From Urechis unicinctus (taxonomy: Eukaryota; Annelida; Polychaeta; Xenopneusta; Urechidae), in the NCBI GenBank assembly GCA_034190875.2, contig CM067346.1, forward strand, positions 46,127,432 through 46,191,431: a stretch of DNA of 64,000 bases, given 5' to 3'. Positions within the stretch are counted from its first letter, which is position 1; each line of letters opens with the position of its first letter. The notes beneath the pieces are model-generated. The model was given only the letters and a program-made list of their open reading frames with translations, had not been told where the DNA came from and ran no database searches. The position numbers and the translations under genes are program-made. Shown piece after piece: positions 8,718-52,063 of the stretch.

Positions 8718-10439
8718 TGTCTGAAACTGTGACCAAGAGCTTGACAAGCATAGTTACACTTAACCATTCCCCTCTTTGGATTCGGAACTTCCAATTCCCC
8801 ATACCCAGACATTTTCCAACACACAATAGAACAAGGCTACCGATTGGTGGACACTTCTCAGTGAGCCCAGTATGTTATTTCAATAATGTTGTCTGAGTTT
8901 GGCAAGCATTCTGACATTTTCATTTTATTTCGATATTTTAAGCTGTGACAATCGCTGGATATATTCATATGTAAATCACTTTACATATTTTTATCGCTTT
9001 ATGCGTTCTAATGGCATATCTTATTCATCTTGCGATTATACATGTCCAGTGGTAATCCTCGAACATAATAGAAATACATTTCTGATATCTACTCACGTCA
9101 CATGACCACAGAATAGCATGCATATCAACGCCACAAAAATTTGTGGTACATATTTCAGATGTGAAAAACGTGTTGGAATAGCAGCGCGAAAATCTGGTGT
9201 CCCACGAGAAGAGCTGTTTGTGGTCAGTAAAGTGTCCTCGGGTGCTCATGGGTTCAATGAGTGCATTACAACTCTCAAGGATAGCCTCACGAGGTGGTAC
9301 ATTAGGTACAAATTGCAGGACTCATGAGAGATTCTTATTTGAATTATTCAGAGTAAAAAATTCACTGTGGTGTTATTTTCAGATTAAATATGAAATACGT
9401 TGACCTTTATCTCATACACACACCAGCAGCGGGTCGCTTACTGGAAACGTATGATGCTTTGTTAAAACTCAAAGAGGAAGGTCTTATCCGGTGAGAATAT
9501 TCAGTTTCTTAAACAAAATGATGCATAAATATGTGATGATGACCTATACCGAAGCACGAACCTAAGGTATACATCATTTTGCTATTTCATTTATCCTTTG
9601 TGGTTTCATTACTGTTACCTAATGTGACTGGTGAATCTAGGTCAATGGGAGTGTCTAATTTCGGAGTCCGCCATTTGGAAGGACTGACATTAAGTGGACG
9701 GCCCCTGCCCTCTGTCAAAAAATTGCACCAACAAGAGATTGTAGATTATTGCCAGAAAAATAACATCACTGTCATGGGCTACAGTCCACTTGCTAAATGG
9801 CAAGCAGCAAATGACAACTTTCTCTTAGAGATGGCACAAAGATAAGCGATGATTTCTTTCAATTTGTCTCCAGGCGATACCAGTTCCAAGTTTGCAAACG
9901 GCGACAACATTTATAACATGTTGTTTTTATATCAATTGCTACATTTATATGAATTCCAAAATGATGTGAAAGATACGGTAAAACTGATGATCCGATGGAG
10001 TGTCCAGAAAGGCTATATCACACTTCCACTCCTGAAAGAGTTGCTGAGAAAACTGATCCATCCATGATAAAGACATGGCTTCCATCGTAAGTACATCGTT
10101 TAATTGTAGCGTCCTCAAACGATTAGGACTAAAGAAGTCTTATATTTTCTTGGACTCAAATCGATTTGTAAATTATTGCATCGAATTTGCAACGTGGCGT
10201 TTTCTCACAAATGCCTTGCTTCAAACAACAGTACCTGACCTCGAGGTAGCATTTTTTCCGCATCAAATGACAAATTACTTCAATGTAACTCTTATTCGAA
10301 ATCGTTCTTGGAATGCGACTTTTGTTAAAAAAAATTATGATAACCTACGTTGAGATTATCATTATATCATTGTGTACCAGGCTGGGCTAGAGCAAATGGC
10401 TGTTTCACGTTACACTGTGACCTGTGAATGGAGACCTTA
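8718..10439 (+). pseudogene. aldo-keto reductase pseudogene (tandem copy, introns retained)
   Basis: Exon-by-exon copy of the AKR at 2594-4457, introns included, so it arose by DNA duplication and not retrotransposition. Exon 1 (from 8718) has lost about 11 bases around the GDGVTMP region and has TGA right after DTSQ. Exon 2 (9159-9293) and exon 3 (9383-9490) are still open and very similar to the parent. Exon 4 (from 9641) has an in-frame loss of six codons in the NQIELH segment, and its donor has mutated from GT to AT (9842-9843). Exon 5 (from 9973) lost 11 bases and then more. The last exon (about 10380-10439) is open to TAA. No full-length enzyme can be made. Confidence 0.92.
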
Positions 10440-11639: not shown

Positions 11640-11784
11640 CCAGAAGTAATTTGCGCCCCATGCAAATACCACAGAAATTCTCCTGGGCTTCTTTGTGTGC
11701 CCGAAATACATCAGGGCTAATTAACTTGGCGAATTTGCATTCGGCGATTTATGGCGATCAGCCGTTTTGTATGTATATTTGGAT
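11640..11784 (+). repeat. degenerate satellite monomers, left edge
   Basis: Phrases such as CCAGAAATTCTCCTGGGCTTC and CCCGAAATACATCAGGGCTAATT follow the pattern of the 31-bp satellite found intact at 13650-14640. This suggests the satellite once extended to the left of the microsatellite. Confidence 0.5.
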
Positions 11785-12465
11785 GTATGTATGTATGTAT
11801 GTATGTATGTATGTATGTATGTATGTATGTATGTATGTATGTATGTATGTATGTATGTATGTATGTATGTATGTATGTATGTATGTATGTATGTATGTAT
11901 GTATGTATGTATGTATGTATGTATGTATGTATGTATGTATGTGTCTGTATGTATGTATGTATGTATGTGTATGTATGTCTGTATGTATGTATGTATGTAT
12001 GTATGTATGTATGTATGTATGTATGTATGTATGTATGTATGTATGTATGTATGTATGTATGTATGTATGTATGTATGTATGTATGTATGTATGTATGTAT
12101 GTATGTCTGTATGTATGTATGTCTGTCTGTATGTATGTATGTATGTATGTATGTATGTATGTATGTATGTGTATGTATGTATGTATGTCTGTATGTATGT
12201 CTGTATGTATGTCTGTATGTATGTATGTATGTATGTATGTATGTATGTCTGTATGTATGTATGTCTGTATGTATGTATGTATGTATGTATGTATGTATGT
12301 ATGTATGTATGTATGTATGTATGTATGTATGTATGTATGTATGTATGTATGTATGTATGTATGTATGTATGTATGTATGTATGTATGTATGTATGTATGT
12401 ATGTCTGTCTGTATGTATGTATGTATGTATGTCTGTATGTATGTATGTATGTATGTATGTGTATG

Positions 12466-12497
<32 letters not shown>

Positions 12498-13358
12498 TGT
12501 ATGTATGTATGTATGTATGTATGTATGTATGTATGTATGTATGTATGTATGTATGTATGTCTGTCTGTATGTATGTATGTATGTATGTATGTATGTATGT
12601 ATGTATGTATGTCTGTATGTATGTCTGTATGTCTGTATGTATGTATGTCTGTATGTATGTATGTATGTATGTATGTATGTAGTATGTATGTATGTATGTA
12701 TGTATGTATGTATGTATGTATGTATGTATGTATGTATGTATGTATGTATGTATGTATGTATGTATGTATGTGTATGTATGTCGTATGTATGTATGTATGT
12801 ATGTATGTATGTATGTATGTATGTATGTATGTATGTATGTATGTATGTATGTATGTATTTGTATGTATGTATGTACGTAGATGTGGGGTTGTATGTATGT
12901 ATGTATGTATGTATGTCGTGTCTGTATGTATGAATGTCTGTATGTATGTATGTATGTTTATATGTATGTATGCCAGAAATATATGAGTATGTATGTATGT
13001 ATGTCTGTATGTATGTTATGTCGTATGTATGTATGAATGTATGTCTGTATGTATGTATGTATGTATGTGTGTATGATCGTATGGGTGTATGTATGTCGTA
13101 CGCCAGTATGTATGTATGTATGTATGTAGTATGGGGTTTGTATGTATGTATGTATGTCTGCCAGAAATGTATGTATGTATAGTATGTATGTATGTATGTA
13201 TGTATGTATGTCTGGTGTATGTATGTATGTATGTATGTCTGTATGTCGTACGCCATGTATGTATGTATGTATGTATGTCTGTATGTGTATGTGTCTGTAT
13301 GTATGTATGTATGTATGTATGTATGTATGGTATGTATGTGTATGTTGTATTCGTGTGC

Positions 13359-13401
<43 letters not shown>

Positions 13402-13632
13402 CGTGGTGCGTGCGTGCGTGCGTGCGTGCATATATGCATGCATGCATGCATGCATGCATGCATGCAGAAATGCATGTATGTATGTATGTATGTATGTATG
13501 TACGCCAGAAATATATGATGTATGTGTATGTATGTATGTATGTATGTATGTATGTATGTATGTATGTATGTATGTATGTATGTATGTATGTATGTATGTA
13601 TGTATGTATGTATGTATGTATGTATGTATGTT
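11785..13632 (+). repeat. (ATGT)n tetranucleotide array, about 1.85 kb
   Basis: Near-continuous ATGT with point variants (CTGT, GTGT), a (GT)n run at 13361-13398, then GCGT and GCAT units to about 13466. From 12970 onward it is broken by pieces of the 31-bp satellite (GCCAGAAATATATGA at 12972, CGTACGCCAG at 13097, CTGCCAGAAATG at 13158, GTACGCCAGAAATATATGA at 13501). Large open frames of Met-Tyr-Val-Cys or Ile-His-Thr-Tyr periodicity are artefacts on both strands. Confidence 0.98.
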
Positions 13633-13639
13633 GGTTTGT

Positions 13640-14640
13640 TATTCGTGAGGCGGAAATATCGAACAAGGTTTATTCGTGTGGCAGAAATATGGAGCAGACT
13701 TTAATCGTACGGCAGCTATATACAGCTGGGTTTATTCGTGCGCCAGAAATATAGAGCGGGGTTTATTCGTACGCCAGAAATATAGAGCGGGGTTTATTCG
13801 TACGCCAGAAATATAGAGCGGGGTTTATTCGTACGCCAGAAATATAGAGCGGGGTTTATTCGTAAGCCAGAAATTTAGAGCGGGGTTAATTCGTACGCCA
13901 GAAATATAGAGCAGGATTTTTTCGTACGCCAGAAATATAGATCGTGGTTTATTCGTACGCCAGAAAAATAGAGCGGGGTTTATTCGTACGCCAGAAATAT
14001 AGAGCGGGGTTAATTCGTAGGCCAGAAATATAGAGCAGGGTTTATTCGTACGCCAGAAATAAAGATCGGGATTTATTCGTACGCCAGAAATATAGATCGG
14101 GGTTTATTCGTACGCCAGAAATATAGAGTGGGGTTTATTCGTACGCCAGAAATATAGAGCAGGGTTTATTCGTACGCCAGAAATATAGATCGGGATTTAT
14201 TCGTACGCCAGAAATATAGATCGGGATTTATTCGTACGCCAGAAATATAGAGTGGGGTTTATTCGTACGCCAGAAATATAGAGCGGGGTTTAATCGTAGG
14301 CCAGAAATATAGAGCGGGGTTTAATCGTACGCCAGAAATATAGAGCGGGGTTTAATCGTACGCCAGAAATATAGAGCGGGGTTTATTCGTACGCCAGAAA
14401 TATAGAGCGGGATTAATTCGTGCGCCAGAAATATAGATCGGGATTTATTCGTACGGCAGAAATATAGATCGGGGTTTATTCGTACGCCAGAAATATAGAG
14501 CGGGGTTTATTCGTACGGCAGAAATATAGATCGGGGTTTATTCGTACGCCAGAGATATAGCGCGGGGTTTATTCGTGCGCCAGAAATATAGAGCAGGGTT
14601 TAATCGTACACCAGAAATATTGAGCGGGGCATATTCGTCG
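13640..14640 (+). repeat. 31-bp satellite array, about 32 copies
   Basis: The consensus unit runs TTTATTCGTACGCC then AGAAATATAGAGCGGGG, 31 bases. Copies vary at few sites (GAGCGG/GATCGG/GAGCAG; TACG/TAGG/TGCG), and some variants recur at intervals, which suggests higher-order duplication of blocks. Confidence 0.96.
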
Positions 14641-24200: not shown

Positions 24201-27200
24201 TGATTGGCTTATTCAATATAACTCATTGATAATTAAGTTCAAAATCTTTTGCAGATTGAATATACTCAGACAAGGAAATCTCTAAAACTACTTCTTCACA
24301 CTTTTTTTCCTAGTTTTTATTGATGGCTTTATCATAACCAAATTACCATATCACTATTTAAAGCCATTTGTAATTTACTGGGAATTTTACGACAGACTCC
24401 ATGATCTGGACAGAACTCATTACGCTTAACAAGCTTAGTTAATAAAATCCTGGAACACCAGTGTGTCTAACATAAAGTAGCTTTCAGTGTGTTTGGGATG
24501 CAGTGAGCATTGGCTCTGCAAGATTGGTTTTGTTTGAGGTTCAATGGTGTACTTGAGCCCCCTTTAAGACTGATGCCGGCCACCAGGCCTGGTGTGCATG
24601 AAGTATCCTTTAGTACACTACTAATCTATCTCAATTTCCTTGCAGGATACTTCCTCTTACAATACCGAGGGATGATCAAAGACGTTCGGATCAACCATCG
24701 GCAGGTAACATTGGTTAACAAGGAGATCCACAGAGAGCCCCCCACACCAAACTCTCTCCAGATCACTGCTTGCAATTCACAACTGGCTCGTCAATTCCGT
24801 CGTGAGATGAGGCAGGAAATGCACCAAATGCAGGAATCAATAGATTCATACCCCTCATGGGAAGAAGGTGTGGAAGAGAATGATAGAAGACCCAGCTCTG
24901 GACTACCGGAGTCATCTCTGCCAGCAGGACAACCGAACCCATACCAAAACCCTATATATACGTAAAACGATAATGCATCATTGCAGACCGAGATGTAATT
25001 TAGCCAAATTTTAAGTAACACTAAATACAATACGTGATTTTTGAATACAAAAATACCAAGTGGTTGTCTACGACAGTTTCATGACGCGACAGAATTCTCA
25101 TGCTAAAACAACGAGATGGAGTAGGTTATGGTTCTTAAGCAGCTTAGTCTTATAAGCTATTTCATTTACCACATTTATTCTTTAGCAAAAAAACAACAGT
25201 TCTTGTCAAGTTAGCATTGTACAGTGAATTGATACTAAATAGAGTGGGAAAAGAATGAAGAGGTAGAAGACTGGTGATGATGGGAGGTAAGGGTTAGCCC
25301 TTCACTGACTAATCATTTCATCTACATAGATGTCCTGTAAGGCTAGGTTAGAATGAAACCATGCTCTTAGGGACAACTGATTCAGATTTACAAGATATAC
25401 CAGAGATGATCAAATGATTATTGTCAATAAAAAGCTGAATACAGTGCTGAAGAAGAGAGATTTCCACCACATGCAGCTAATAAAAACAAATGAAATGTCC
25501 AATTCATCCTCATATACATTAATTTACTGAATTAATGAGTTCAAACAGTTTCATGTTATATGAAACTCACCTGTTCACATCCAGGTGTAAATGCCCCAGG
25601 TACTGAGAAGAGAATACCACGGGTGTCCTTGAACAAGTCATGCACCTTGACTGTGTTGCTGGGTGTATTTTCATAGAGGACGGTGTTGGGCAGCTGGTCT
25701 CCAACCTGCAACCAAATTGACATCAAAATGAAAATCTAGGAATCTACAAAAATGGGCTTCAATTTACAAAGTAAAGCCGATCAGATGGCTAGTTACCATT
25801 TTATCACAGTTACTCTAAACATTTCTTCACCTGTTACTAGTCGCCTGATTTATTGTTAGGGTACAGTTTCTTGATAAAAAATATGAATATTCAGATATTC
25901 TTCAAGTTTGCTGGACACCATAACAAGTTAGTAACATTGGTCAACTTCAATTATAACATTTTGGCCTGGCTAGTTTTGAACATTAAGTAGCACATTTTGC
26001 TTCCTAGACGATGAAAACAGTGAGTTCTCTGTGTGGGAAATGCATAGTGTAAAGGCTTCTTTGTAGAGTTACTGATGGAGTTATGACTACTGAATCTGAT
26101 GCAATACAAAAATCAACAATTCAAATCAGATACCTTGAATGTGTAAAACATGGCAAGCTATTAGGTATAATCACGTTTTATTGATAATGAACTTGCACCT
26201 TCACCCACGAGTGATATAATCAGTAGACTATTACGATTGCAGTCGTGGTGCATCATCAATGAGCACATGGCGCCATGTTTGCTTTTACGACAAGGTGGTA
26301 GCTGTGCCCAGTCCAAACTACTCCAATCAGGTGACCCTTGGAATAGCATGGTGGGCGTTCAACTCGGAGTCTGGTGGCACAGCCTTGCCGCACATATGCT
26401 GTTGTAACCATGGTGATGGAGTAAAGACTAAACACATTAGCTGGGACCGAACTGTATCAAAAGCTTACATACTTTTTTAATGTAAAAAGGACGTTGTTGA
26501 TAGCTTTTTTGATAGAATTGAAAGTAAGTTGGTGGTCACCATAGTACGGTTACGCTGAAATCGATATTTAGTTAGCAATTATTAAAGAATGGCATTGTCA
26601 GGGAGTATGATTTTGGTACAGTACGCAGTATATATTTGTAGGCATTTGACATATGCTCCTTTCCATCTGGTTATATGCATTACCCAGTGAACCATTCTGA
26701 AAAAAATTACATGGATAGGAATGATCAACAACGTTATAAAGAAATGATCCATCTATGCAGCGCGATCCATGATCACACCAACAATAATGGCAGCATACAG
26801 CTTGCAAATAGCTTATGCAACAGTTATATCAATCAAATTGTGGTTTGGTTAGCCTGGTAACCAGACCTTAGTATCATTCTGTTAGGCCAGGAGATAACCC
26901 ACGTACAAATGTGGTTGACAACCAAAGATTAACCTCACTGACTTTTATAGTGAAACAAATCCAAAGATGAACCATATCTGGTTATTCTTAAACATCTTAC
27001 TGTGGTAACTGAAAAATACAGATTGTCATCAAGCACAAATCAACCAAAACATATCATAAATATTTACGCTGCACATTTTATCATTTTTCTGGTAACAAAG
27101 GGCATTATGATGATATTGCTTCGTTTCACATAGACTTGAGCAAAAACATAAGTGGACAATGTTCCGCTTCAATTTTTTTTTCCATGGATATTTACAAGTG

Positions 27201-32254: not shown

Positions 32255-32376
32255 GGTTCTGTGCACGGCTTGACAGATAGGAAGAATAGTAGAAGATAAA
32301 CGCTAACTGCCAACAACATTTTCGCTGTTTTTCTCGTCATAACGTTTGACATCGCTCAGATTCTGCCATACGGACC

Positions 32377-32421
32377 CTCGCCCCTAAGGTGTCATCAGAT
32401 CATCTAAACACCAGGGGCGAG
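32377..32421. promoter_or_regulatory. hairpin 125-170 bp upstream of the PRDX5 start
   Basis: CTCGCCCCT-AA-GGTGT pairs with ACACC-A-GGGGCGAG across a 15-base loop. Could be a 5' untranslated-region structure or promoter palindrome of PRDX5 (minus strand). Confidence 0.35.
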
Positions 32422-34533
32422 TTGCCTTGCCTACGCGAAACTATAACAATGAAATATTCACAATCCCAAATTGTGGTATATCTTGATGATTTCACTACCA
32501 CAGGTTCAGATTTTATCATAATATCGCTTAACAGATATTATGTGACTTTGAGTTAACATTAAATTGGACTAAAATTAGTTGAACCCAGTTTCATTATCTT
32601 GTTGACTCCAATAACACTTGTTGAAAGCCTCGTCTGACCCCAAAGCAATCAATTTCTACAGGATTGGCCGTGTCCTCAGACACCCAGTCACCCCAAATAA
32701 ATCCACCATGTGCTCTTATTGCTACCCTGTGGGTACCACACATCAACATACACAACGGAAATTGTATCACTTATTCCTCCATAACTTACAAGACCGAAAT
32801 GTCACGATACTGTTCGGTACAACCTGCGTAAACTCAGTTAAGCTCCTCATTCGGAACAAATTGTCCGTTTGAACCAAGGACTTTGAATACTTCTATGACC
32901 TTGTTTGCTTTTAATCATGCGTTTTTTGTGCATAAGTAGCTAGTGAACTAGAAAACAAACTCAAGGACAAAATATTTCGAAGCTCGGCCCGAAGGCATGT
33001 GAACCGTTTTCCGCAGGAGGAATGAAGTAGGTCGGTAAATAAGACAGAAGCTGTCGGAGCTGACCAAATGCTCCCCACTCCACTAAACAAGATACTTCTC
33101 TACCTGTGCTCTCGAGGGTGTACGACATGGACCAATCCATTTTGTCCCCAATCAAAGGGATCAGGGTATCAACCGGCAGTTCGTTTTAATGTCTGATATT
33201 TACAAACAGAAAAACGGAAACCGACCCACCCTATTCCCCGCCATTATTCCATCCGAAACCTCACCAAAGACACCATCTAAATCCTCTTTGTGCTAACCCC
33301 ATTCGACCCCTATAATCTTTCCCATGCTAACCCCGTGTAATCCCCATCGTTTCCGCCCTAACCCCCGCCATAACCCCATCCTTATCCCCGCTGTGTACAT
33401 TATGATTACCATGGCATCCACAGTTTAGAGCATGAACGTTGTAATTGCCGTAGAGCCAAATTTGACACACTTGTGTCCTCTTGAGGCCTCGGGTGACCTA
33501 TGAGGTCACATCCAGTATGCCCATGACATTCAGCACAAAAAAAATAACCCTTCGGCAACCTCCTTGGACTTAAACTGATTTGCACTGAGAGCAGACAGAC
33601 AGACCAAGAGACATTCACAAATATGTATTAGATAAGCAAATGCTATATAGAGTATAGGGCAGTTCGTTCTGAATAGCTCTTTTGAACCAAGTGGAGCTTG
33701 TGATCGACTGTTGGTCTGTTGGGTTAGTTCTGAACAGTTTCAATTGGCAGATAAGTCACCTCGACTGCAAAATCTTTCTAACCTTGTATGACCTATTTGA
33801 TAACCTATTTAAAGCATTATGCACATTGGTTGTCCAAAAGCAGGTCGAAATCAGAGCAATGAAAAACTTGTTTGACCTCCATGTTAAACTTAGCCAGCCA
33901 AATGTTGATATCTCACGGCTCGCGCTATCTCCAGACGATACTCACCATTATCATGCAACAATACATTCAAAATAGAACACTTATATATCAACTTATATGT
34001 TACTTACTTGGAAACATTTTGTCGAAAATTATTTTCCGTCTCCGTTAAATGTTCTTAGAGCAATACATGTCAATAGATATATATGTATGACCTCTTCAAA
34101 GTACTTGATATGGAGTGAGATAATTACATGTTTTTGGTCTCATTTCTATTCAATTGCGCTCCAATTTGACTGAGCCGAATAGCCGAAGTCATTCATCAAC
34201 ATCACAACCTTTACCATTTGTAGGTATAATGTTAATGTTTGTGTAAATTCTTTTAGTTTTGTTGTTTTTGGCAATGGGTTTTTGTCCATGAAGCTCTAAC
34301 AAGCGACAGATCTGGGACACCAAAAATACGGATGAAAACCTTGGCTGGTCGCCGCATTGTCAGGCTGTTGAACTGAGCCACAAATAGAACTGCACAACTT
34401 TTTTTATCATGTGGGCTGTCAACCCATATCAAGTTATCACGATTATATTGCTCGTCTGCGACCTTCAAAGATGAGCATATAAACCACATATCGTTGTAAG
34501 AAAACCATCTGCTGACTGTCTTACGTGGTCGAA
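32422..34533. other. intergenic between divergent PRDX5 and phospholipase B genes
   Basis: No coding exon recognised. 33230-33400 is C-rich on the plus strand with recurring AACCCC at irregular 10-20 base spacing. Confidence 0.45.
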
Positions 34534-39552: not shown

Positions 39553-41295
39553 TTAAGTAAACTGAGTTATTCCATCCTGTACATAAGATGTCTGGTGGAA
39601 CAAGTGTCGCGGGTGCGTTTCGTAGGAGCATGCGGAGATCATATTTCCAGGAGTGTGCGCATGCGTAGTGTGTCCATCACCTTCCGGAGTGAAATGCACA
39701 GAATTCTGCACCAGTGTGTTATTCAGACAAACGTTGGCATCATCGCCCGGTGATGTGCTTGTCGGCACATTGACTGCTGTAACATTGTCACAATTGACAT
39801 CTGTACCAAATCCGTATTGTGTCCACGACTGACAAATCCTTGCTGCTGCACTGAGATCAAATTGACCAAAGTCAGTTACTGTTGTTGATTCAGATCCAAC
39901 CCAATCATGCTGGGGATAGTGATCTGTGGATCCTTGGTACGTCTCGTAGTAATACGATCCAGGGCTTGTAGACACATTCTCTGAGGCTGTGTGATAGCTG
40001 TTGGAGCCATTTTGTGAGGTCGCGAGATTTGATTGGTACCCCTCCCAGTAGGCGGCTTCCGGTGGGTATGAACTATCGCCGTTTGGTAGTTGGTCTTGGG
40101 CTGGTTGCCCTGTTTGAGTACCATAATGATCGACCCTGTTAAACACACACAGTCAATTTCTCTCTTACACATAAGGGAGTGGTAATTGTAAAATGCTCTA
40201 AATTTGGATATTTGACCAATTGAGAGGGAACTAAATAGTTTTTACGATCTCTGCTAAACTGAACATTCATTTTCTCCCTTGCACTATCCTTGCTTCGGCT
40301 GTCACTTTTTCAAAAAAAAATTTAAAGTTATCGGAACTTTAAAAATTATAGTTTTCCTGACATCGCTGCAATTCTACGAATAAGTCGTCAGTAGAGGAAC
40401 GGCTCCTTCAATAAAACGTGCAGCAATATGATCAGCACAGCAACAATGACGTCACGGATACTGACCCGATTTCATTGGTGACGAATTGAAGCGGGTCTTT
40501 ACAGATTTGTACCAAGTCTAACTGTAACGTTTTGAAAATGTGCCTCCGGTATAATAAACTGGAACTTTACCTTGCAGATGGTGTGATGTCATCAGCGCAC
40601 ATTTTCGTTGTGGATGGTTTTAAACCGGTCCACTTCCTATTACCGGTCGTACCAGCTTTCAGAGTGATGGTCTCGTTCGCTCTCGTCGTGCCAGGGGGCG
40701 CGCCTTCGTGTTAAACAGTTTCTCGCGCATCCAATTAACGTGACCAGATTTCGAACTCTTCCTGTATTTAGAACGTCGGTTCTGGAACCACGTCTAAAAG
40801 CAAACATAAAAAATCTACATTTTGATTTAATTTATCATCATTTTAATGGGATTGGGTGGTTGGTTTTTTTAAGTAGCACGCGTGGTGGGGAACTTACACA
40901 TATCTTCTCGACGGGGATAGTGAGTCGGTGAGCGAGAGTTGTGAGAACGCTAACATCCGGGTAGTGAAACTGTTGGAAAACTAACTCCATAGCTTGGAGC
41001 TGAAGTCACAAGACAGCACAGTTCAGTAGTTATATCATATAGGTTGATGGTGTATGTGACTATGCTCTATAAAGCATTCGATAATACTTCTGTCATTATT
41101 ATATTATTATTATTACTATTTATTGTGTTATCATCATATATTCCAGTATGATTCACGTATAAAATCAAAGATTAAAGAGCCAAGAAATAGGTGGACTTGA
41201 AACTCAATTTGTTCATGTTAAGAATGAAGTCCTACCTGTGCTCCGGTGAAGTTGGTCCTGCCTGCCTTGCGTTCAGGTCTTCTCACAGCCGGCAT
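39553..41295 (-). CDS. divergent PRD-class homeobox gene, four exons, apparent frameshift
   Basis: Transcription factor. Exons: 41236-41295, 40898-40999, 40571-40793, 39553-40135. The ATG follows an in-frame TAG. A complete 60-residue homeodomain starts at residue 9: arm and helix 1 from RKAGRTNFTGAQ and LQAMELVFQQF, then HYPDVSVLTTLAHRL, then TIPVEKIC joined to TWFQNRRSKYRK. Trp48, Phe49, Gln50, Asn51 and Arg53 are all present. One intron falls between homeodomain residues 46 and 47, typical of PRD-class genes, as is HYPDV. No paired domain. Exon 3 is 223 bases; its homeodomain frame meets TGA at 40656, while the frame that joins exon 4 in phase is open from about 40700. One extra C in the C5 run at 40694-40698 (plus-strand G5) would unite them, giving about 320 residues with a Ser/Thr/Tyr/Gln-rich C-terminus. 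As it stands, a 99-residue product keeps the homeodomain. Orthology not assigned. Confidence 0.85.

Positions 41296-47610: not shown

Positions 47611-47615
<5 letters not shown>
47525..47615 (-). promoter_or_regulatory. long hairpin spanning the Nkx2-1 stop codon and early 3' UTR
   Basis: Three stacked stems on the same axis: 47525-47530 with 47610-47615 (GGTAGC/GCTACC), 47536-47542 with 47603-47609 (GCGGCCT/AGGCCGC), and 47544-47554 with 47579-47589 (AGACCTACACC/GGTGTAGGTCT), 24 perfect pairs in all. The stop codon (47611-47613) is in the outer stem. Confidence 0.6.

Positions 47616-52063
<4,448 letters not shown>

Follow-up and report, generated by a model that had tools for sequence, protein, structure and literature searches.

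A divergent PRD-class homeobox gene lies 6.3 kb from Nkx2-1 in the genome of the annelid Urechis unicinctus and carries a break in the reading frame of its third exon. Both genes are found in a stretch of 64,000 nucleotides of contig CM067346.1 (assembly GCA_034190875.2, positions 46,127,432 to 46,191,431), which is called the window below. Taken as a whole, the evidence makes it likely that this is a real protein-coding gene of the PRD class, with four coding exons downstream of Nkx2-1, whose family is not readable, whose product would be a sequence-specific transcription factor and whose frame break is probably an error of the assembly. Family novelty is not established, because orphan PRD genes are already on record.

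Gene Structure and Homeodomain

The homeobox gene is compact, and its coding part on the minus strand begins with an ATG at 41295 and ends with a TAA at 39555-39553 (Table 1). Three small exons join in frame to form a complete 60-residue homeodomain without any insertion or deletion, as the hand splicing in the preliminary description had proposed. The spliced peptide matches the Pfam Homeodomain model with 62.7 bits and an E of 2.9e-17 (cut-off 22.9). The invariant helix-3 residues are kept, and the residues retained across the domain include F8, F20, L34, W48, F49, Q50, N51 and R53. The DNA-contact residues R5, Q50, N51 and R53 are all in place. Met16, Gln50, the TIPVEKIC segment (residues 39–46) and the eight residues before the domain, which had been read from the letters earlier, are all present in the spliced translation. 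The homeodomain begins at residue 9 and is preceded by MPAVRRPE only.

Both introns within the homeodomain have GT/AG ends and are in phase 0. One of them follows residue 46, at the end of exon 2, which bears out the earlier placement. The other, at 12/13, is absent from the earlier account. The splice sites were scored with generic matrices. The donor of exon 1 (CAG/GTAGGA) is in the top 0.58% of all GT dinucleotides on the minus strand, and the acceptor and donor of exon 2 are within the top 6% and 5.1%, respectively. Exon 3 has an acceptor in the top 1.3% and a donor (AAG/GTAAAG at 40570) in the top 0.74% of GT sites. The last exon has its acceptor at 40135, in the top 4.9%. The donor and acceptor sums of the three introns are 6.46, 6.02 and 6.18. 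The putative TATA-like, initiator-like and AATAAA signals flank the gene at the expected places and lend this layout weak support.

Table 1. Positions of the features of the homeobox gene and of the neighbouring Nkx2-1 in the window.
Feature	Position	Strand	Remarks
Promoter candidate, TATA-like box TATATAA	41447..41453	-	consensus match only
Initiator-like TCAGT	41427-41423	-	28 bases beyond TATATAA; consensus match only
Coding exon 1	41236..41295	-	ATG at 41295, 8 residues, homeodomain residues 1-12
Coding exon 2	40898..40999	-	homeodomain residues 13-46, with HYPDV and TIPVEKIC
Exon 3	40571..40793	-	homeodomain residues 47-60 (40793-40752), then basic stretch and frame break
Interval of the frame change needed to link exon 3 with the last exon	40662..40710	-	
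Last (fourth) coding exon	39553..40135	-	193 codons, then TAA at 39555-39553
Candidate poly(A) signal AATAAA	39495..39500	-	begins 53 bases past the stop codon; consensus match only
Nkx2-1 first coding exon	51443..52063	-	name from homeodomain exon and known Nkx2-1 features
Nkx2-1 homeodomain exon, open frame	47611..48489	-	Pfam Homeodomain, E 1.7e-21

The homeodomain exons were also recovered by a six-frame scan, in which 2780 stop-to-stop peptides of at least 15 amino acids were compared with a profile of reference homeodomains. Nkx2-1 ranked first, followed by exon 2 (iE 5e-6, 24.0 bits alone) and exon 3 (iE 7e-4, 16.9 bits alone). An unrelated peptide at 26480-26578 was fourth with 8.6 bits. 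Exon 1, which is short, was fifth with 6.1 bits, a score that is weak by itself. The three exons lie on one strand and in collinear order, and this collinear ranking is far beyond chance.

The domain is strongly divergent. Twenty of its 60 residues are shared with one or none of 40 reference PRD homeodomains; when each of these 40 was left out and counted in the same way, NOBOX (16) and Xenopus Mix1 (14) were the most divergent. The gene has L31, V42, T47 and S54. In the reference PRD domains, R31 is present in 40/40 and E42 in 39/40, position 47 is Val in 37 and Ile in three, and Ala54 is found in all 40, so that neither Thr47 nor Ser54 occurs in any of them. C46 and Y56 are further residues that are unusual for these domains. 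So many rare residues would suit a gene that evolves fast or one that is losing constraint. Exon 2, with 34 codons, has a negative codon score of −15 bits, with training only on the two Nkx2-1 exons.

Four peptide strings from the homeodomain occur in none of the papers searched, an outcome that says no more than that the sequence is not printed there. Protein-pattern scans returned nine fitting stretches in viral contigs and 148 in prokaryote genome contigs, and none was confirmed as a relative. These misses say little, because the collections are viral and prokaryote.

Assignment to the PRD Class

The homeodomain of the gene scores 70.4 bits against a PRD-type profile built from 40 reference rows and 48.3 bits against an ANTP-type profile built from 11 reference rows, with HHEX left out. 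Two DUX4 domains, which are controls outside both profiles, resemble the gene, with 70.3 and 76.4 bits for PRD versus 51.5 and 53.6 bits for ANTP. The LIM domain of LMX1B also favours the PRD profile (55.2 versus 48.4 bits), and a small gap between the profiles is therefore not specific to the PRD class; the gap for LMX1B is 7 bits, whereas that for the gene is 22. The top matches by sequence in the PDB, among the best 60 of 157, are DUX4, ALX4, PRRX2, PHOX2B and PAX6. An intron between homeodomain codons 46 and 47 is at the usual PRD position (PMC2938728, PMC5180219).

In a tree of 47 rows, the gene and the 38 other PRD rows stand apart from the eight ANTP rows with a support of 99/93. In a tree of 50 rows, the LIM row LMX1B falls with HESX and thereby breaks up the PRD clade; holding the PRD rows together gives a p-AU of 0.39. 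Overall, the profile scores, the HYPD signature and the 46/47 intron support the PRD class that had been proposed before, though a forced grouping of the gene with ANTP was not rejected in the 47-row tree (p-AU 0.441). The gene does not fit the Pax subclass: only eight residues precede the homeodomain, and position 50 is Gln and not Ser. The best match of a reference Pax1/9 paired domain in the window has an E of 4.7.

Family Placement and Known Relatives

The 48 yardstick homeodomains used for family placement were reference sequences, with the exception of the window's own Nkx2-1. The best identity was that to UNCX (29/60, 48%), which has RTNFTG in common with the gene and was still the best among the 49 other rows of the first tree. 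In this tree (50 rows), the gene sits on an end branch of 1.76 changes per site and has no supported neighbour. NOBOX joined it there, and this pairing was set aside as unsupported (73/79) and subject to a long-branch warning. For the second tree (47 rows), NOBOX, LMX1B, both DUX4 domains and PAX4 were dropped, and LBX1 and TLX1 were added; HHEX is in neither tree. The end branch of the gene then measures 2.54, again with no supported placement. The bootstraps were unsettled in both trees, and 60 columns are too few for placing the gene. The homeodomain appears so diverged that its family cannot be read from it.

It is quite unlikely that the gene belongs to a canonical family from which it has strongly diverged; the most plausible candidate would be Uncx. 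The best match and the common RTNFTG point that way, and the likelihood is no lower in either tree when the gene is grouped with UNCX and fly unc-4 (p-AU 0.576 and 0.567). However, six rival groupings were likewise not rejected in the second tree, namely those with PRRX, GSC, RAX, PITX and OTX (p-AU 0.358 to 0.542) and that with HESX, and therefore the test of the Uncx grouping has little power. HESX has an identity of 22/60 to the gene, and its grouping was rejected in the first tree (p 0.029) and not in the second (p 0.488). As a rule of thumb, 48% is low for a PRD family, and the eight residues before the homeodomain also speak against Uncx. The claim that the gene fits no PRD family holds for the canonical families that were compared, with a best identity of 29/60 and two trees without a supported placement; within this scope, the proposed lineage-specific novelty is neither established nor contradicted.

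Members of such non-canonical groups have been described in other animals. According to Paps 2015 (PMC5322547), the oyster has nine PRD genes outside the canonical families, two of them unassigned; the paper also defines clades I–VI, with clade III given as protostome-wide. Barton-Owen 2018 (PMC6118893) keeps clades I–VI and introduces clades VII and VIII together with Lopx, with the caution that long-branch artefacts may lie behind some of the groupings. There is about an even chance that the Urechis gene belongs to a non-canonical PRD group that already has a name, such as one of the spiralian clades I–VIII, the kin of amphioxus Aprd or an orphan like oyster Cgi_PRD2 or Cgi_PRD9, and does not form a new family. 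Such oyster genes and spiralian clades are on record (PMC5322547, PMC6118893), and the canonical families that were tried do not capture the domain of the gene. The clades I–VIII and the oyster orphans have in common with it a divergent PRD homeodomain outside the canonical families, a likeness that was drawn from their descriptions. Against this reading, the translated exons lack SPQQVRS, which PMC5322547 gives as a conserved or semiconserved motif of clade VI, and the clades were compared by description only. Oyster Cgi_PRD1 of clade IV has a paired domain (PMC5322547), whereas the Urechis gene is without one. It is somewhat improbable that the gene represents a new PRD family outside both the canonical families and the published spiralian clades (as known by description), fixed beside Nkx2-1, with a rewired L31–V42 core and, through Thr47 and Ser54, a DNA preference of its own.

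The canonical PRD genes (Uncx, Drgx, Arx, Alx, Prrx) share with the Urechis gene a 60-residue homeodomain, HYPD at 24–27, Q50/N51/R53 and the 46/47 intron. In contrast to them, the gene has no more than 48% identity to any of the reference domains, the residues L31, V42, C46, T47, S54 and Y56, an extra intron at 12/13, and a homeodomain at the extreme N-terminus. In human HESX1, the second intra-homeobox intron lies at 12/13 as well. Vertebrate Hesx1/Anf genes have two intra-homeobox introns as well, one of them after residue 46, but their homeodomain lies near the C-terminus and is combined with an N-terminal repressor motif (PMC5180219), whereas the homeodomain of the Urechis gene starts at residue 9. 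The echinoid hbox12/pmar1/micro1 genes are also fast-evolving paired-like homeobox genes. They are multicopy and consist of two exons and one intron in thirty P. lividus genes (exon 1 was not found in one of them), according to PMC5370098, whereas the Urechis gene has four coding exons and three introns and occurs only once in the window.

The Frame Break in Exon 3

The homeodomain frame continues through exon 3 as far as RTRPSL and meets a stop at 40661-40659, which gives 98 amino acids. The donor at 40570, the acceptor at 40135 and the last exon all agree in phase, and they are out of the homeodomain frame. As assembled, the homeodomain and the tail cannot be one chain via any well-scoring splice. 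The interval that the preliminary description had assigned to the gene was right for the homeodomain exons; the fourth exon at its end does not join them in frame. The limits within which the frame must change (Table 1) are set by the homeodomain-frame stop at 40661 and by the last stop of the downstream frame, which starts at 40713. A run of five C at 40698-40694 is the only run of at least four equal bases within 40710-40662.

Splicing round the break was considered and dropped, as no route scores well. The enumeration of frame-keeping alternative splice routes gave 41 direct and 10 internal ones, the best of which score −1.75 and −5.54, respectively, compared with 6.0 to 6.5 for the accepted introns. 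Programmed −1 slippage was also dropped, as no slippery heptamer was seen in frame by eye. The codon score, trained on two Nkx2-1 exons, is too weak for choosing the frame of exon 3. Most likely, the break is a one-base error of length in the assembly, in or near the C5 run, rather than a sign of decay; a damaged allele, with no working product, is the less probable alternative.

Decay would mean that the break is real, that the whole protein is no longer made and that the gene is a lineage-specific pseudogene. This is unlikely, although the frame break itself and a number of rare residues that exceeds those of all 40 reference PRD domains would fit it, and a precedent is given by ARGFX, which has frameshifts or stops in many mammals (PMC2894831). 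Against decay stand the intact splice sites, the preserved key residues of the homeodomain and the unbroken 193 codons in the last exon, and a lone break in an interval that bears a C5 run is, from general knowledge, typical of an assembly error. It is less likely still that the true product ends at 40659 within exon 3, as a short DNA-binding competitor of 98 amino acids, and that the last exon is used in another splice form. The assembled homeodomain frame does stop there, and the 41 frame-keeping direct routes would lead to the last exon, with scores of at most −1.75. Nevertheless, the donor at 40570 is out of phase with the 98-residue frame, and the last exon, with its acidic open frame, has to be joined to other coding sequence. 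An assembly error remains the preferred reading. The splice sites and the biased last exon, together with the TATA-like box and the poly(A) signal, uphold the earlier view of a working gene, and the frame break, which had been overlooked, weakens it.

The Acidic Last Exon

The last exon encodes 20 D/E and two K/R, with a net charge of −18, and is rich in T, S, G, Q, N and Y. Among 3000 simulated stop-free peptides, K/R averaged 24.4 with a minimum of 9, and none had two or fewer. The exon has 28 L/I/F/V/M, compared with a simulated mean of 57. The hydrophobic share over its full open frame is 0.16. The two Nkx2-1 exons have 0.16 and 0.18, and five other long open frames of the window range from 0.25 to 0.37. 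With training on Nkx2-1, the codon score favours the frame of the exon (+7.7) over the other two (−28.8 and −30.8). An open frame of 199 codons is not rare per se, as 4 of 200 simulated stretches of 11 kb contained one of at least this length; it is the composition of the last exon, not its length, that is the telling sign. A Pfam scan of this exon returned no domain, a pattern search found no eh1-like motif and no OAR motif was seen by eye.

Nkx2-1 and the Rest of the Window

The Nkx2-1 homeodomain of the window is 87% identical to that of human NKX2-1. As the preliminary description had stated, the two genes are close to each other. The homeodomain exon of Nkx2-1 lies on the same strand, 6.3 kb upstream, so that the genes are arranged head to tail. 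The profile scan found no other convincing homeodomain in the 64 kb, although a domain split into small exons could escape such a scan. Reference Pax1/9, FoxA and Nkx2-2 domains were also compared with the window, and the only match below an E of 1 was the Nkx2-1 homeodomain. Consequently, the 64 kb show no sign of a wider pharyngeal-type cluster. Control shared between Nkx2-1 and the homeobox gene is possible, as an idea only.

The remainder of the window was surveyed with Pfam in 142 open frames (84 + 58), 136 of which came from a filtered list of 197 frames of at least 64 amino acids. At an E of up to 0.01, aldo/keto reductase was found in two frames, GIY-YIG in one, and one further match at 0.0065 was taken as chance. 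Part of an aldo/keto reductase gene lies at 9543-9842 on the plus strand (PF00248, E 3.1e-6; the best of the two frames reaches 1.7e-11). The GIY-YIG endonuclease match (PF19835, E 1.1e-5) is one of the 84 open frames within 1-42000 and is perhaps the remnant of a transposable element, such as a Penelope-like element. Ten window frames scanned singly with Pfam gave nothing up to an E of 0.01, and the Rfam and tRNA scans of the window were empty. A long repeat array of the TGTA/TATG type occupies 11700-13700, where several frames are open for hundreds of codons. The GC skew is strong at 12001-14000 (0.63), and TA-rich microsatellites are found elsewhere in the window. A short open frame at 32350-32553 on the plus strand has a reverse-transcriptase-like YLDDF and no Pfam match.

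Predicted Function of the Protein

The protein is predicted to be a transcription factor that acts at specific DNA sequences. As in other Q50 PRD domains, R5, Q50, N51 and R53 of the homeodomain would favour binding to TAAT-type sites. Within the recognition helix, Thr47 and Ser54 would alter which base is preferred after the core. The reference rows of LBX1 and TLX1 have Thr47 too, and a similar effect of Thr47 is known from TLX1/HOX11, in which the choice of the base after TAA is altered. The usual pair of R31 and E42 forms a salt bridge in homeodomains. L31 and V42, which take their place, look matched as a hydrophobic pair and may preserve the stability of the fold. The tail, which is acidic, rich in Tyr, Gln, Ser and Thr, and poor in hydrophobic residues, would serve as an activation domain.

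Significance

The gene also carries a warning for annotation. When a frame break lies near a divergent domain, the gene model is easily lost or truncated. Duplication followed by fast divergence, which yields new transcription factors, is one route to new development in animal lineages. A compact gene beside the deeply conserved Nkx2-1 would allow a test of whether control elements of Nkx2-1 have been borrowed.
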